Positions 9,832 through 21,439 of a stretch of DNA of 21,439 bases are shown piece by piece. Below the pieces are notes generated by a model. That model was not told the origin of the DNA. It saw nothing but the letters and a program-made list of their open reading frames with translations, and made no database searches. Source of the DNA: a virus. The stretch spans positions 1 to 21,439 of IMG/VR virus record IMGVR_UViG_3300027777_000179; one strand, 5' to 3'. Numbering within the stretch: position 1 is the stretch's first letter; each line of letters starts with the position of its first letter. The translations under genes and the position numbers were made by a program.

Positions 9832-10820
9832 TGGCGTTCCTGAACTTCCTCACGCAGGGGCAACCCCTCCCCTCGACGACATCCTCGCTGACGACCTCGC
9901 AGGTTCCGCAGTATCTGTCGGACTACCTCTACAATCTCATGTCCGGCGCCTACAGCGCGGCGCAGCAGCCATATCAAGCTTATGAAGGCCCTCGCATCGC
10001 CGGGTTTACTCCGGGACAGACGCAGGCCTTTGGGGCTACAGAACAGGCTGCCGGGGCCTACAAACCCCAACTGACGGCGGCTGAGCAGACGGCGCAGCAG
10101 GCTGGCGGAATCAGCGCGATGGGGGCGGCTCAGCCTTACTTCAATCAGGCGAGCCAGAACCTGCCGAGCACGATTCAAAACTACATGAATCCGTATCAGC
10201 AAAACGTGATCAACACGATGGGCACCGAGGCCCAGCGTCAGTTGCAAGAAAAAATACTTCCTGCGATTGGCGATCAGTTTACGCGCGCAGGTCAATATGG
10301 CTCAAGCCGTCAGCAGGAGATCGCACAGCGCGGCATTCGTGATGTTGCGAGCGATCTTGAGGCTAACATCGGCAAGCAGCTTGCTGCTGGTTACACTACA
10401 GCCGGGACGCAGGCGCAGGCGGATCTCGCACGTCAGGCTTCTATTGGCCAGGCGGCAGGCACGCTTGCTGGCACCGAGGCGCAGCAGAAGGCGGCTTTGG
10501 CGAACGTGCAGGCTGGCCTGGGGCAGAAGGAGCAGGCGCTCGGTCTGACAGGTGCTGCGGCTCTTGAGACGACTGGCGCCGAGCAGCAAGCCATGAACCA
10601 GAAAAATCTGGATCTGGCCTATCAGGACTTTCAAAACCAAACCCAGTATCCACAGCAGCAGATCGGGTTCCTGAGCAACGTGATTCGCGGCCTGCCGTCT
10701 GGTGGTAGCACATCCACCGGCCAGACTGCTTCGATGGGTCAGACCTACTCCGCATCGCCGCTTGCTTCGCTGGCCAGCGCTGGTCTCAGCGCTGCTGCTC
10801 TTGGCAATCTACTCAAGTAA
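9831..10820 (+). CDS. Probable internal virion / ejection protein (Gln/Ala-rich)
   Basis: This 329-aa protein overlaps the previous stop (TAATG). The N-terminus has VPQYLSDYLYNLMSGAYSAA followed by YQAYEGPRIAGFTPGQTQAF, a recognisable start of a podophage internal protein family. A region with NYMNPYQQNVINTMG and GQYGSSRQQEIAQRG follows. The middle third is strongly helical and rich in Gln and Ala, compatible with a coiled-coil bundle. The C-terminus is Ser/Ala/Gly-rich. It probably travels in the capsid and enters the host with DNA. It lacks a catalytic motif. Annotated relatives are usually called DNA transfer or hypothetical virion proteins. Confidence 0.62.
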   Translation: MAFLNFLTQGQPLPSTTSSLTTSQVPQYLSDYLYNLMSGAYSAAQQPYQAYEGPRIAGFTPGQTQAFGATEQAAGAYKPQLTAAEQTAQQAGGISAMGAAQPYFNQASQNLPSTIQNYMNPYQQNVINTMGTEAQRQLQEKILPAIGDQFTRAGQYGSSRQQEIAQRGIRDVASDLEANIGKQLAAGYTTAGTQAQADLARQASIGQAAGTLAGTEAQQKAALANVQAGLGQKEQALGLTGAAALETTGAEQQAMNQKNLDLAYQDFQNQTQYPQQQIGFLSNVIRGLPSGGSTSTGQTASMGQTYSASPLASLASAGLSAAALGNLLK

Positions 10821-14219: not shown

Positions 14220-14290
14220 TTGAGTTCACCCTTCTTACTTACAATGGTCATGTTTCTGTGTTATGTGGCGTTATCTACAGGGAGGTTCCC

Positions 14291-15286
14291 ATGTATTTGA
14301 CAGCCAAGCAAGTCAAGGAACTCTACAACCAACACGGTTCAATCCGTCGCACAGCCGACTTCCTTGGAATACCGGAACGCACTCTGAGGGACAAGGTAAA
14401 GGACGAGAGAGACATTAAAGTGTCTGAGACCGTCTTCCGTGTGAAGGATCTGGAGGACGAGGTTGATAAACTAAAACATAAGCTGTCTCTGATCTCAACC
14501 ATCAAGCCAAGATATGTGGCGGGCCGCGAGGACGAGACCAGAGTCGTGGCGATAGGCGATACGCACGACCAGCCAGGCATGGACAAAGATCGGTTCAGGT
14601 GGATCGGTCGCCATTGCGCCAAGGTAATTCCCCACAGAATTATTCAAATCGGAGACTTTTGTTCGTGGGATTCGGTCTCGACGCACGATGCACCTGGCAG
14701 CGTGTCGCACTCAATGAGGCCGTCATTCAAGACGGATCTTGAGAGCTGCGAAGAGGCGATGGCCCTGTTCTTCAAGGAGATCAAGGATCTGACGATCCCC
14801 ATGGAGCTGACGGCGGGGAATCACGAAGACCGAATCCAACGATTCGAGAACAAAAACGCCGAGACTGTTGGAACGCTCTACATGCAGTTCGAGGAGCTGT
14901 GCGCTCGGTATCGCTGGCGCCTGCACACATATGGGCAGTGGCTATTTGTCGATGGTGTTGGGTTTACGCACGTTCCCAAGAATATAATGGGCAAGCCCTA
15001 CGGCGGCCAGAACAGCGAAAACCAGATAGCTAATCACGCAACTCACAGCGTAGTCTTTGGTCATACGCATCGCTCGTCCTTTCGTAAGGCGCCGAAGATC
15101 GGCATCAACAACAGCATCGAGGTCTTGAACCTGGGCAGCGCCATGCCTGACGGCTACGTCGCCAAGTATGCAGGAACCGCAACCTCGGGGTGGTCCTACG
15201 GCATCTACGAACTGTCCCTCAAGGCTGGCCACATAACGTCCCACAGGTTTATCAGCATGCGCGAGCTTCGGGAATTGTACGCTTGA
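14291..15286 (+). CDS. Metallophosphoesterase with N-terminal helix-turn-helix
   Basis: This 331-aa protein starts at ATG 14291, five bases after GGGAGG; a GTG at 14258 in the same frame has no ribosome site. Residues about 5-36 are a helix-turn-helix (GSIRRTADFLGIPERTLRDKV), and 49-68 are a charged helix. The calcineurin-like phosphoesterase domain follows with all metal-site motifs: GDTH (89-92), GDFCSWD (121-127), GNHED (176-180), FTHVPK with H227, and GHTH (257-260). Enzymes of this fold hydrolyse phosphate mono- or diesters with two metals; substrates range from proteins to DNA ends and cyclic nucleotides. The HTH suggests action on or near DNA. The intact metal ligands imply an active enzyme. 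Confidence 0.85.
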   Translation: MYLTAKQVKELYNQHGSIRRTADFLGIPERTLRDKVKDERDIKVSETVFRVKDLEDEVDKLKHKLSLISTIKPRYVAGREDETRVVAIGDTHDQPGMDKDRFRWIGRHCAKVIPHRIIQIGDFCSWDSVSTHDAPGSVSHSMRPSFKTDLESCEEAMALFFKEIKDLTIPMELTAGNHEDRIQRFENKNAETVGTLYMQFEELCARYRWRLHTYGQWLFVDGVGFTHVPKNIMGKPYGGQNSENQIANHATHSVVFGHTHRSSFRKAPKIGINNSIEVLNLGSAMPDGYVAKYAGTATSGWSYGIYELSLKAGHITSHRFISMRELRELYA

Positions 15287-16745: not shown

Positions 16746-16942
16746 TTCGGCGCCTCCGGCATTGGCATCCAATGGGTCGGGTTCAGTTCGCAACCGTTGT
16801 GATCGCGCCACTCTTGGAAGTCGGTGTCGTAATACCCCACCACAAGAAGGCCCCCACCCGGCGATTCTTTCCACCAAGACGGCTCCCACAAAAGGAGGCT
16901 GACTTCAACATCTGCGGTATCAATCGGCTGCCACTGAGACAT
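16742..16942 (-). CDS. DUF551-like protein, copy 2
   Basis: This 66-aa protein begins MSQWQPIDTADVEVSLLLWE and ends NPTHWMPMPEAPK, matching the DUF551 ends although the middle differs from copy 1. The DNA at both ends of the two copies is visibly similar, pointing to duplication and divergence. The start overlaps the end of the DnaA-like gene by 23 bases. GGAGAAGAGAA precedes the ATG and supports this start. The function is unknown; duplicate copies of DUF551 genes occur in other phages. Confidence 0.75.
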   Translation of the reverse strand: MSQWQPIDTADVEVSLLLWEPSWWKESPGGGLLVVGYYDTDFQEWRDHNGCELNPTHWMPMPEAPK

Positions 16943-17348
16943 TTCTCTTCTCCATCCTTGCTTTGAACCTGCGCACGCTGCTTAAGACTGTCGTGTGGTC
17001 CCTTCCACCACACAACAACCCAATCTGTGGATATGACCACCCGCGCCCCTTGAGGAAGATGTAGACCTCAGCGCGAACGGCGAGCAAGTTGTTCGTCCTG
17101 CCTGGCCCAATGGCACGACGCCAAGTCATTCCATGACGCTCCAAAATCTTCGCAATCTCCTCCTTCGCTTCATATGAGCAGGGGACACCACGCATGGGGT
17201 GGGGCGGCACGTACACCACCTCTTCAACGGGCTCTGGATCGGGCTGGGGAGGCTCAGGAACCACTACAAGCTTCGGAGGCGGCATTGACCCCAGACGAAT
17301 CTTGATGGCCTTGTAATGGGCGTAGAAGTCTTGGATTGGCTGGTTCAT
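16920..17348 (-). CDS. DnaA domain IV-like DNA-binding protein
   Basis: This 142-aa protein starts at ATG 17348 after AAGGGGG and overlaps the upstream stop (ATGA). The first 50 residues are Pro-rich and probably unstructured. Residues about 83-131 match the C-terminal DNA-binding domain of the replication initiator DnaA: RTNNLLAVRAEVYIFL, then SYPQIG and the signature GGRDHTTV (114-121). This part of DnaA contacts the DnaA box. The AAA+ ATPase and DnaB-loading domains are absent, so it cannot act like full DnaA. It could bind host or phage DnaA boxes as a repressor, a competitor of host replication, or part of phage origin recognition. Confidence 0.82.
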   Translation of the reverse strand: MNQPIQDFYAHYKAIKIRLGSMPPPKLVVVPEPPQPDPEPVEEVVYVPPHPMRGVPCSYEAKEEIAKILERHGMTWRRAIGPGRTNNLLAVRAEVYIFLKGRGWSYPQIGLLCGGRDHTTVLSSVRRFKARMEKRNVSVAAD

Positions 17349-17766: not shown

Positions 17767-18129
17767 TTAGATTAACCCCTCAAGAGAGAGCGGGTCTTTG
17801 GGTGGTAGGTAACACAGGCTTGCATGGTGTGCGCAGTAAGACCCTCGAGACACCTCGTCCAAGCAGTATTCCGGGCTCGACATGTCTTCATTCAGAATGT
17901 ACCGGCAGGTTCGCATATTCAAGGCCAAAATCGCCTCATGGTTTCCGATTGGTTGATATCTGCGGTAGCTTGATCTCTTTGATCTTGGTTCAAAGTAGGC
18001 GCCCGCATGCCTCGCCCTATAAATCATCCCGGCAATCTCGTTTCGAGTTGCCCCCATGAGAGCTGCGATCTGGCCCATACTCAGACCGCTATTCCATAAT
18101 TTCAGAACCTCCTTCAGATCGTCATTCAT
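17767..18129 (-). CDS. GcrA-like cell-cycle transcription regulator
   Basis: This 120-aa protein starts at ATG 18129; the frame continues upstream into neighbour sequence that looks non-coding. The N-terminal part is the GcrA DNA-binding helix-turn-helix: LW at 11-12, SMGQIAALMGATRN (17-30). The C-terminal part has the GcrA end pattern, CRYILNEDMSSPEYC followed by SYCAHHASLCYLPP, with C75, C89, C99, H101 and H102. Host GcrA in Caulobacter and relatives joins sigma70 holoenzyme and stimulates promoters with CcrM-methylated GANTC sites. A phage copy could redirect host RNA polymerase to phage promoters or alter the host cell cycle. The ribosome site (GAG) is weak. Confidence 0.82.
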   Translation of the reverse strand: MNDDLKEVLKLWNSGLSMGQIAALMGATRNEIAGMIYRARHAGAYFEPRSKRSSYRRYQPIGNHEAILALNMRTCRYILNEDMSSPEYCLDEVSRGSYCAHHASLCYLPPKDPLSLEGLI

Positions 18130-18655: not shown

Positions 18656-18671
18656 CTCAACTCCTTGTGGA

Positions 18672-18700: not shown

Positions 18701-19384
18701 TTAACCAAAATCCTCAACGTCTTCCTCGACCTTCTTTGGGGCAGGCGCAGAGGCGCGTGTAGCCCCCGTAGCAGGCGGCTGGTTGGTGGGAGCCGGTGTC
18801 GCCCAGTTCGGGACGGCAACCGGCTCAGCCGAGGCGCGGGGGGATGCTACGAGATCCTTGGGACGCGAAACCCACGAAAGAATCTCGAAGACGGGGCGAT
18901 AGTTGGTGGACTTCATGCCTTGGCCCTTGCTTTCAATCGGAATTGTCTTAGCAAGGCGAACCACAGGCAGTTTGCCGGGGTTCTGCTTCAGGCCACTTAA
19001 ATAGTCATCATGCAGAACTTCCATACCATCCTTAAAGACACCAGAATTAGCAGCCAGCTCGCGAATGTCGCCGCCGATCTCGCCGCCAAGCTTCACGCAA
19101 ATGCGAACGCCTTGCTTGTGGTCTTTGGTGGGCTGTGCAGGCAGTGGCGACCCAAAAGGAACCATGCAAAAGTCAGGAGGCGAGCCCGCAGCAAAAAGCA
19201 AGTATCCGACCTCAACATTTTCAAAATCGAACACGGCCTTAAAGTTATGTGTGATGTCTGTTGGCGTCAGAACGCCATCTTCACGATCCATGCGGAAAAT
19301 GCGACCAGCTCGAGCATCATACTTGATGATCGGGAGGAAGTCCTTGCCGCCAGTGGAGTTGCTAAGGTTGAGACCAAGTGCCAT
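18701..19384 (-). CDS. Probable single-stranded DNA-binding protein
   Basis: This 227-aa protein starts at ATG 19384, eight bases after AAGGA; the frame extends to 19405 but without a site. It begins MALGLNLSNSTGGKDFLPII and continues with FKAVFDFENVEVGYLLFAAG, a family I have seen in alphaproteobacterial phages. Residues about 175-215 are Pro/Ala-rich and flexible. The chain ends in a short acidic tail, VEEDVEDFG, with a near-terminal Phe, as in ssDNA-binding proteins that recruit partners through that tail. An OB fold is likely but cannot be confirmed by eye. It would protect ssDNA during replication and recombination with the adjacent nuclease. Confidence 0.62.
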   Translation of the reverse strand: MALGLNLSNSTGGKDFLPIIKYDARAGRIFRMDREDGVLTPTDITHNFKAVFDFENVEVGYLLFAAGSPPDFCMVPFGSPLPAQPTKDHKQGVRICVKLGGEIGGDIRELAANSGVFKDGMEVLHDDYLSGLKQNPGKLPVVRLAKTIPIESKGQGMKSTNYRPVFEILSWVSRPKDLVASPRASAEPVAVPNWATPAPTNQPPATGATRASAPAPKKVEEDVEDFG

Positions 19385-19412
19385 TTTCAGTTTTCCTTCT
19401 ACCAATGCGCCT

Positions 19413-19450: not shown

Positions 19451-20200
19451 CTAAACTCCCCAGACCTCAAACACCGCCTGCCGGGCGGCTGGATCAGAGA
19501 AGTAGAAACTTTCAATGTCTGGAACCAACAGGGACGCCAGCTCAAGAGGGTCTTCACTGACCGACAGAAACCTTTGGATCGTGAGGGCGATCTTCTTCAG
19601 GCTATCGACGTGCTCAGGCACGTTCTCAAGCTTGTAGGTGGCCACCTTCTTCGGCGTGACATAAGTCAACCGGGCATCTGTGCCCTCGCCCATGCAGGCC
19701 GCATACAAAGACACCTGACGAGCGTGATTAATCTTGATTTTGTTGGGCAGAGCGTGCGTCGTCTTCAGGTCGATCAGGATCCCGTGATCTTCCCACGCAA
19801 CGTCATAGTATCCGATCATGGGGACATGCAAGCCCTCAATTTCCAAAGACACCTTGCCCTGCGTTGAAGACGGCTTGCCGTAGGGGCGCAGCTCAGCAAG
19901 GCCCTGACGCACCATCTCGGGCACAGCATCGCGCTCTTTCTCGAGGCGGGGATCGCCACACAGAGCAGTCAGGCGGCCAAAGGTATCTTGCGCCACCTTG
20001 ACGCACTCGTCGTCTGAGACGCCATTCACAAGCCCGTGGACGACGCCCTCTTCGACCGAGGTTCCGCGATGCGCTGCGGCGCCTACCTTGGACTTTCGCT
20101 GAAGCAACCGCTCCAGGACGAATGCCGCTGGCGAACCTATGAAGGTGTTGCAGGCGCTGGGGGACAGGTGCTCAATGCCGTAGGCAGGGAAGGGGTTCAT
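19451..20200 (-). CDS. PD-(D/E)XK nuclease, RecB/Cas4-like
   Basis: This 249-aa protein starts at ATG 20200; the frame continues upstream into the control region with no site. It opens with LSPSACNTFIGSPAAFVLER, a common start of RecB-type nucleases, then HRGTSVEEGV (44-53). The catalytic core is IGYYDVAW with D133, ILIDLKTT with D144 and K146, and HARQVSLYA with Q162. These are the metal and nucleophile-orienting residues of the PD-(D/E)XK fold. There is no helicase domain and no Cys cluster like that of Cas4. It is probably a DNA exonuclease for recombination or end processing, paired with the SSB-like protein next to it. Substrate polarity is unknown. Confidence 0.83.
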   Translation of the reverse strand: MNPFPAYGIEHLSPSACNTFIGSPAAFVLERLLQRKSKVGAAAHRGTSVEEGVVHGLVNGVSDDECVKVAQDTFGRLTALCGDPRLEKERDAVPEMVRQGLAELRPYGKPSSTQGKVSLEIEGLHVPMIGYYDVAWEDHGILIDLKTTHALPNKIKINHARQVSLYAACMGEGTDARLTYVTPKKVATYKLENVPEHVDSLKKIALTIQRFLSVSEDPLELASLLVPDIESFYFSDPAARQAVFEVWGV

Positions 20201-20332
20201 TTGATTCGCTCTGTTTTCGACGATGGCGATACTGCACACCGCAATAGGGGAAGTCAACAGGGGTGATTCCCCCTTGACTAAAATTAAAATTTCCACAAGC
20301 ATCCCGGTCGTGATTCATCAAGCGAGGCCAAC
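20201..20332. promoter_or_regulatory. Divergent control region with dyad and three GANTC sites
   Basis: The 132-bp gap separates the leftward nuclease and the rightward resolvase. GTCAA-2-GGGG (20253-20263) and CCCC-1-TTGAC (to 20278) form a dyad. It places TTGACT on both strands: 20274-20279 (plus) and 20257-20252 (minus). The minus copy has CAGTAT 17 bases on, giving a start about 20 bases before the nuclease ATG; the plus copy has only AAGCAT, so that promoter is weaker. GATTC (GANTC class) occurs at 20203-20207, 20265-20269 and 20312-20316. A TTGACT-adjacent A/T-rich tract (20279-20292) contains two TAAAAT. Promoter activity is not proven. Confidence 0.5.
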
Positions 20333-20806
20333 GTGACCCTTTTCATCGGCATAGATCCCGGCCTCACAGGCGCCATCGCATTCTATGATCTTGAGTCTGG
20401 CAGGCTTGCTGTAGACGACATGCCGACCGTTGAAATTAAAAGGAACGGGAAGGATAAGAAAGAAATCAATCCTCACGTTCTAGCAGACTTTTTCACGGGG
20501 ATCAGCGTTCCGTGCTCCGCAGTTTTGGAACGTGTGGGGGCCATGCCCGGCCAAGGCGTCACGAGCGTCTTCAGCTTCGGGCGCAGCGTCGGCGTGATTG
20601 AGGGCGTGTTGGCGGCAAGCTTTATCAAAGTGACAATCGTCACCCCACAGACGTGGCAAAAGGCCGCAGGTGTGCGCGGTGGGAAGGATGGCGCCCGTCT
20701 CAGGGCGGCTGAGCTTTTCCCCGCCTATGCCGGGATGTTCAGCAGAAAGAAAGACGACGGGAGGGCTGACGCGGCCCTCATGGCGTGGTATGCCGCAACC
20801 AAGTAA
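20333..20806 (+). CDS. RuvC-like Holliday junction resolvase
   Basis: This 157-aa protein starts at GTG 20333, five bases after GAGG. It has the RNase H/RuvC fold motifs in order: FIGIDPGLTGAIAFY with D8, SAVLERVGAMPGQGVTSVF with E66, and RKKDDGRADAALMAWY with acidic residues D141, D142 and D146. Together these give the metal-binding Asp-Glu-Asp set. The phage version of RuvC cuts branched DNA and is often needed to resolve replication and recombination intermediates before packaging. Length is right for the family. It precedes the primase by about 20 bases and is probably co-transcribed. Confidence 0.85.
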   Translation: MTLFIGIDPGLTGAIAFYDLESGRLAVDDMPTVEIKRNGKDKKEINPHVLADFFTGISVPCSAVLERVGAMPGQGVTSVFSFGRSVGVIEGVLAASFIKVTIVTPQTWQKAAGVRGGKDGARLRAAELFPAYAGMFSRKKDDGRADAALMAWYAATK

Positions 20807-20826: not shown

Positions 20827-21439
20827 ATGTCATTTGATCCAGACTTCGCAGACCCGACGGAATGGGCGCGCATGTACCGAGGCTGCGGCCTTCAGGTCGT
20901 GCCAGCCATGAGCCCTCGAGACAACAAGACGCAGTGGAAGCGTCCAGCCCTTCCCAAATGGCGGGAGCTAGAGCACGATCTCGCCCCCGACTTTACCTTC
21001 GAGCGCTGGTATGGCGATAATGGCGAGCACGCCAGGCGCTACAACATGGGCGTCATTGCTGGCGCCTGTTCATCGGGCGTCTTCGTCATTGATTTGGATT
21101 TACACAAGAATCCGGCTGCGCAGGCATGGTGGTACGAGATGCTTGACCTCCAGCAAGGTGCAGGCGATCTGGAAACCGCCGAGCAGGCCACCGGCGGTGG
21201 GGGCGTTCAGCTTTTCTTTCGCGCTCCAGCGAACTGGACGCCCCCGACATGCAAGACGTCGATCGGTGTAGACATTCGCGGCCAGGGTGGGTTTGCGATG
21301 ATGCCGCCCTCAATGCACGAAAGCGGAAAAAATTACCGATGGAAGCCCGGACTTGAGCCGTGGTCTGTCGAGATTGCTGAGGCGCCGATGTGGCTCTGTG
21401 AGCAGATTACCAGCCTGGCCCGAGAGCACGGCGGATCCA
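20827..21439 (+). CDS. Prim-Pol (bifunctional primase/polymerase), 3'-truncated
   Basis: The frame is open from ATG 20827 to the window end (204 codons visible); an in-frame ATG at 20815 is an alternative start. Neither has a strong ribosome site. Features match the archaeo-eukaryotic-type primase/polymerase N-terminal domain: VFVIDLDLHKNP with the metal-binding D89 and D91, a GGGGVQLFF motif (123-131), VDIRGQGGFAMMPPSMH (148-164), then GKNYRW. This makes primers and can extend DNA. In phages the domain usually continues into a superfamily 3 or related helicase, which would lie beyond the edge. It marks the start of a replication module. Confidence 0.85.
   Translation, partial: MSFDPDFADPTEWARMYRGCGLQVVPAMSPRDNKTQWKRPALPKWRELEHDLAPDFTFERWYGDNGEHARRYNMGVIAGACSSGVFVIDLDLHKNPAAQAWWYEMLDLQQGAGDLETAEQATGGGGVQLFFRAPANWTPPTCKTSIGVDIRGQGGFAMMPPSMHESGKNYRWKPGLEPWSVEIAEAPMWLCEQITSLAREHGGS

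Follow-up and report, generated by a model that had tools for sequence, protein, structure and literature searches.

The mom promoter of phage Mu is gated by the Dam methylation of its host. It is a phage promoter under host adenine methylation, but the system is that of GATC and Dam in enterobacteria and not that of GANTC with CcrM and GcrA. Mid-cycle promoters of Caulobacter carry GANTC between the -35 and -10 elements, as in ctrA P1 at -29 and podJ P2 at -24 (PMC4287350), and for promoters activated by GcrA an extended motif, YGAKTCG, has been given (PMC7987155). GcrA itself combines an HTH, by which methylated promoter DNA is recognised, with a sigma-interacting domain (SID) (PMC7403470).

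The phiCbK-like phages of Caulobacter also encode a GcrA homologue, gp222, for which an action on host replication genes was proposed; the available part of that report discusses no GANTC phage promoter and does not contain the word GANTC (PMC3556154). In Brevundimonas subvibrioides the phage genes of a prophage operon are likewise expressed in a GcrA-dependent manner, but this operon has 26 genes, the prophage is probably defective, and the available text describes no fixed spacer site (PMC7987155). CtrA control in phiCbK, Brevundimonas phage Delta and a Mesorhizobium phage is a further case of alphaproteobacterial phages reading a host cell-cycle regulator, although here the regulator is CtrA and not GcrA with CcrM, and predicted GcrA sites had no positional asymmetry in the phages scanned there (PMC9437464). 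Pelagiphages resemble the phages considered here in that related phages are split into those with and those without a near-total loss of GANTC, but no retained promoter site is described in the sections available (PMC9516812). The literature searched, which lacks most subscription journals, yielded no description of a phage promoter with GANTC that GcrA reads.

The main new result of this study is a GANTC slot at a constant place in the leftward promoter of relatives of the phage under study. As in ctrA P1, podJ P2 and mipZ of Caulobacter, GANTC in these relatives lies in the -35/-10 spacer. Unlike those promoters, theirs is a phage promoter, its control by GcrA and methylation is proposed, and the window itself has no site in the spacer.

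Results

The window, by which we mean the whole stretch of 21,439 nucleotides analysed, contains at 20201-20332 the divergent control region that had been recognised from its letters, with a nuclease operon leading leftward and a RuvC/primase operon rightward, and the homologous region could be aligned in relatives. The first gene of the leftward operon encodes a PD-(D/E)XK nuclease (19451-20200, minus strand; PF12705), for which PADLOC gave a single weak DruK-like match (E=0.00067). It is followed on the same strand by a conserved protein of the operon (18701-19390) and by a GcrA-like protein of 119 aa (17767-18126). To the right are a RuvC-like Holliday junction resolvase (20333-20806, plus strand; phrog_1770) and a primase/polymerase that runs off the window (20827-21438, plus strand; PF09250).

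A promoter scan of the region at strict settings returned no consensus promoter, and the promoters of the window are inferred from conservation. The putative leftward promoter has its -35 element (TTGACT) at 20252-20257 and its -10 element (CAGTAT) at 20229-20234, both on the minus strand, in the layout of the relatives, with which the position of the -35 and the 17-bp spacing are shared. The putative rightward elements, equally missed by the scan, lie on the plus strand at 20274-20279 (-35, TTGACT) and 20297-20302 (-10, AAGCAT). By eye the two -35 elements are about 17 bp apart in the window as against about 24 in relatives, and an imperfect inverted repeat (20252-20279; 11-nt arms, 82%) joins them around a central GATTC. 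A terminator stem was considered for this GATTC and rejected, as no terminator was found in the window region; so was a repeated operator, AGGGG-N6-CCCCT occurring exactly once without mismatch. There was no Rfam match in the window.

Searches support a GcrA-like protein with DNA-binding and sigma-binding parts. PF07750 matched at 41.4 bits against a cut-off of 26.9, and GcrA in the PDB (7ye1) at E=2.4e-8 over two stretches. Residues 6-59, the HTH, align to residues 10-64 of GcrA. The structural model has a three-helix N terminus at pLDDT about 80 and is weak outside the HTH, and a fold search with it gave generic HTH proteins, none of them at E of 0.001 or less. The SID is placed by sequence only (residues 55-108 matching profile positions 92-147), the model there being below pLDDT 50. 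Near this gene, a 142-aa protein (16920-17348, minus strand) resembles the DnaA DNA-binding domain, with a PF08299 score of 29.1 bits that falls short of the cut-off of 31.5; together with the GcrA-like protein, this makes two that are reminiscent of host cell-cycle regulators. A phage-borne CcrM-type methylase was considered and found no support, PF01555 having no match in any of the 30 records searched, many of which are fragments.

A search for relatives by ruvC kept the best 80 loci, so that the family was sampled and not exhausted. The gene order nuclease, ruvC, primase recurs in many viral contigs among the matches listed. None of these is a closer relative of the window that spans 20201-20332 (the match of L091 to the window ends at 18657), and in trees L004 is the sister of the window (support 89/84 and 94/91). 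A single-sequence search of bacterial genomes for relatives gave nothing, and an alignment-based search gave 10 loci, some in bins that seem mis-assigned (Opitutae, Lentisphaerae). Three of the family's contigs (L129, L130 and L132) are binned in Opitutae MAGs without a RAMA domain and are probably mis-binned; one bin holds both L129 and L130, contigs of different GANTC regimes. Related nucleases are also encoded on alphaproteobacterial sequences such as a Bradyrhizobiaceae chromosome and a 1.7 Mb Xanthobacteraceae contig. The RAMA domain, sought as a sign of a CcrM-type methylase, was present in six of the nine genomes or bins in which a related nuclease lies, and among 14 control genomes in Caulobacter only. 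The hosts of the phage family are likely to be Alphaproteobacteria.

When the leftward promoters of relatives are aligned by TTGAC, their layout is constant: TTGACG, nine bases, a slot of five, three bases and the -10 element. The slot was found by inspection and had not been predicted beforehand. The alignment comprised 45 distinct cores, eight loci without TTGAC in range and those with nuclease identity below 55% having been left out. The slot reads GACTC in 11 cores, GAATC in one (L132) and AAATC in 13. The remaining 20 have other sequences; they comprise the window with GCGGT (20238-20242, minus strand), L004 with GCCTT, L021 with AGATC and L027 with AACGC, and also 16 more distant loci, in which the TTGAC chosen may not belong to the promoter. 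The five slot columns do not vary at all across the 11 GACTC cores, whereas each of the 12 other spacer columns does, and between the L018 type (seven cores) and the L154 type (four cores) identity is 1.00 in the slot as against 0.40 in the nine bases before it and 0.19 in the three after it. Of the 13 distinct cores of these two types, 11 carry GANTC between the putative -35 and -10 elements, and within the L018-type clade the slot was lost in L021 and L027. The slot of relatives stands at about -20 to -16, mostly inside YGAKTCG. On the tree its three states need five changes, where the minimum for three states is two. The suggestion of a GANTC-bearing promoter switch in this control region is partly supported, by the site strongly conserved in the spacer of the relatives' leftward promoter, and is not supported for the three sites of the window.

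The L154-type phages are represented by four records with 53.8 kb in all. GANTC occurs 3, 5, 3 and 6 times in L188, L190, L191 and L192, where 47, 78, 30 and 65 were expected, so that it has been purged ten-fold or more, and still all four keep GACTC in the slot. Taken record by record, the chance of GANTC in the slot is about 2.5e-4 to 4.4e-4, the four being related. Each has exactly one copy of YGAKTCG, and that copy is the slot. Over the four records GAATC and GATTC together number 0 against 116 expected, and GACTC and GAGTC 17 against 104. Full-length GcrA is above the Pfam cut-off in three of the four (GcrA in the PDB at E=1e-10); the fourth, a 6.8-kb fragment, gave no GcrA match. A fifth record, L189 (L155), with the promoter core of L188, has 4 GANTC where 58 would be expected, and it too encodes a full GcrA.

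In the family at large, eight loci including the window have 212 GANTC against 414 expected, and the 15 loci of the clade with AAATC in the slot (188 kb) have 16 against 780, while in these 15 the other fifteen palindromic 5-mers with a central N are at 0.55 of expectation or more. Larger stretches of ten of these records gave observed-to-expected ratios of 0.01-0.11 in seven and 0.47-0.60 in three. Within the AAATC clade GAATC and GATTC are avoided more than GACTC and GAGTC (6 of 555 expected versus 53 of 497). Several 6-bp palindromes are also nearly absent from its 15 loci, CCGCGG at 1 of 115 expected, CCATGG at 1 of 91, CTCGAG at 0 of 59 and GCCGGC at 10 of 161, which suggests restriction avoidance in general. 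In the record of L017, a single 5-kb bin (L110, 10001-15000; 50-55 kb of the record) holds 12 of the 24 GANTC in 60 kb examined, perhaps a recent import into DNA otherwise free of GANTC.

One search found PF07750 in 17 of 30 records and another in eight of ten. The GcrA-like proteins of the window and L091 have HTH and SID, and those of the L018-type phages, L004 and most AAATC-clade phages the SID only. The record of L029 has an HTH of another kind (L095). Most of the relatives' GcrA-like genes (L092-L101 and L103-L107) thus encode a SID with no HTH in frame, even where the phage has hardly any GANTC. On its own, a SID could target the sigma70 of the host or compete with host GcrA.

On the rightward side, close relatives have a gene of 62-66 aa after the promoter. 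The model of its product has a mean pLDDT of 87 and is closest to the prophage Cro 3bd1 (TM about 0.65), with N15 Cro as a weaker match (TM 0.5); the Foldseek E-values of these Cro-like matches are poor (2.1 and 8.5). A palindrome, TTGGANNTTTTGTCCAA, lies over the rightward promoter of relatives, and the AAATC clade has GACANNNTGTC in its place. The first occurs once per record or piece of its kind that covers the control region, and the second twice in the control region in most AAATC-clade records. Neither palindrome is present in the window, nor was the Cro-like gene found in it. In the window the layout of the leftward promoter persists, whereas the site in the slot is gone, and so are the Cro-like gene and its operator.

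The window has instead three GATTCs in its control region, and a check of the letters confirmed them at 20203-20207, 20265-20269 and 20312-20316 (plus strand). The first lies two bases upstream of the nuclease ATG in the context TGATTCG and is the only one of the three to fit YGAKTCG; the matching site is GATTT in most relatives and GATTC in L021. The second is at the dyad between the two -35 elements and the third just downstream of the rightward -10. Counted from the start of the putative leftward promoter, 20203 falls at +16 to +20 and 20265 at about -43 to -47; counted from that of the putative rightward promoter, 20265 falls at about -44 to -40 and 20312 at +4 to +8. All three are outside both spacers, and the window's slot holds no site. 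L004, the nearest relative with the region, has none of the three. The sequence-only reading, which took the three sites for a methylation switch, had named loss in close relatives as evidence against itself; an ancestral conserved switch made of these three sites is rejected on the same finding.

That reading had also contrasted the cluster with its surroundings, and the local counts bear it out: the nuclease gene (19451-20200) has no GANTC and the next 1.1 kb has two, at 20393 (GAGTC, the fourth near the triplet) and 21108. Over the whole record there are 33 in 21,439 bases, or 1.54 per kb, a depleted background (81.7 +/- 8.1 in dinucleotide shuffles; 69.8 and 44.1 expected from second-order and third-order Markov models). 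For 20201-20332 alone, a region picked by eye and with no correction applied, three sites have a probability of 0.0012 at the record's own rate, 0.005 at the clade's intergenic rate and 0.016 in mononucleotide shuffles of the region itself. When the 33 sites are placed at random over the record, however, a trio within 110 bp arises in 30% of trials (P=0.30), and the record has two other separate triplets, at 10108-10191 and 14818-14845. Both are tighter than the triplet of the control region, and the latter is inside a metallophosphatase-like gene (14258-15286). The cluster is above expectation locally and is not remarkable for the record as a whole.

Across ten GANTC-containing records or loci, the window included, GANTC is enriched between genes, at 2.60 per kb against 1.67 in genes, a ratio of 1.56 (73 in 28,092 intergenic and 300 in 179,256 genic bases); the intergenic counts are somewhat inflated, since several short genes of the window, the GcrA-like gene among them, went uncalled. 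The control regions of 11 GANTC-containing loci, again with the window, hold 13 GANTC against 3.0 at each locus's own rate, and mononucleotide shuffles of these regions have a mean of 6.1 and reach 13 in 19 of 2000, figures that overstate independence as the loci are related.

Discussion

Sites, gene order, conservation of the slot and the losses in the window were observed directly, and from these we propose an arrangement that takes in promoter activity, operon structure, methylation, the action of GcrA and repression by the Cro-like protein. Two promoters would stand back to back, the leftward one leading into the nuclease genes (the GcrA-like gene being farther along that strand) and the rightward one into ruvC and the primase. 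The small Cro-like protein, the first gene on the right in most close relatives, would probably bind the palindrome and shut the rightward promoter off. GACTC in the slot, nine bases after the -35 and three before the -10, would be a CcrM site. It could be read by GcrA, either that of the host or that of the phage where this is full length, together with sigma70, and the leftward genes would then respond to the methylation state of the host. The window lineage has lost this slot site, and with it the Cro-like gene and the operator.

Because the slot lies in the spacer and mostly within YGAKTCG, and in view of the architecture of GcrA, we think that GcrA probably reads the leftward promoter of the L018-type and L154-type phages when its DNA is methylated. 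The L018-type protein has no HTH and yet the slot is kept, so the GcrA of the host must be invoked for these phages. The explanation that we put first, and would accept about as readily as reject, is that the leftward slot of the wider clade is a CcrM site read by GcrA, that the window lineage lost it, and that the three GATTCs of the window are stray. More tentative is an account in which phages, probably of Alphaproteobacteria, keep one CcrM site in the leftward promoter while their other GANTC is thinned or nearly erased, GcrA, which some members encode themselves, reads its methylation, and the window lineage has rewired the control region through loss of that site and of the Cro-like repressor. 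For the family, a promoter read through GcrA and CcrM is plausible by inference; for the three sites of the window it is not supported.

It is somewhat unlikely that there is no methylation gating in the family at all and that the window's GATTCs are mere background in non-coding DNA of a phage thinned of GANTC in its genes. Chromosomes of CcrM-bearing Alphaproteobacteria are depleted of GANTC at least 2-fold and have it over-represented between genes by more than 1.5-fold (PMC3973325), and the intergenic excess in these phages is of the same kind. As this bias is common to such chromosomes, part of what had been noticed in the window is ordinary, and random triplets are common as well. Background of this sort fits the sites of the window, but it does not fit a fixed slot kept in relatives nearly free of GANTC.

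That the slot serves the promoter or a regulator in a way independent of methylation, such as an extended -10-like contact or the binding of an unknown factor, and that its states GACTC and AAATC differ as CcrM sites by accident, is unlikely. This view has in its favour the strongest counter-evidence to the methylation reading, namely AAATC in the same slot. AAATC is a conserved non-site in the most GANTC-poor clade, and the slot may therefore serve the promoter in another way. Its conservation within the clade matches that of GACTC in the other (means of 1.93 and 2.00 bits), and the positions are the same. If methylation played no part, however, the GANTC-avoiding L154 type would be expected to drift to an AAATC-like state by a harmless one-base change, and none of its four records has done so.

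That the three GATTCs of the window form a rewired methylation switch, read after the losses by the window's own HTH-containing GcrA, is quite improbable. In its favour, the window has the most GANTC (three) of the control regions examined, it has the HTH that L004 and the L018 type do not, its middle site is at the dyad of the inverted repeat, and 20203 fits YGAKTCG, as does the corresponding site of L021, which is also without the slot; against it, two of the three sites miss the extended motif, none is in a -35/-10 spacer, and the matches listed include no second sequence of the window lineage over the region. To return to the explanation put first, it is most likely that the three GATTCs were simply tolerated outside coding DNA and form no switch.

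For the window itself the outcome is mostly corrective, in that a cluster picked out by eye is not a conserved element. For the family, our analysis suggests that some relatives read the DNA-methylation clock of their host. The phages from which GANTC has been erased offer an almost clean system, with one promoter-placed site of the GcrA motif per genome fragment. If the proposal is true, phage homologues of GcrA, whose role has only been guessed at in phiCbK, would gain a testable target on phage DNA, and if the slot is a CcrM mark, the Caulobacter-type cell-cycle methylation clock would also time phage recombination and replication genes.
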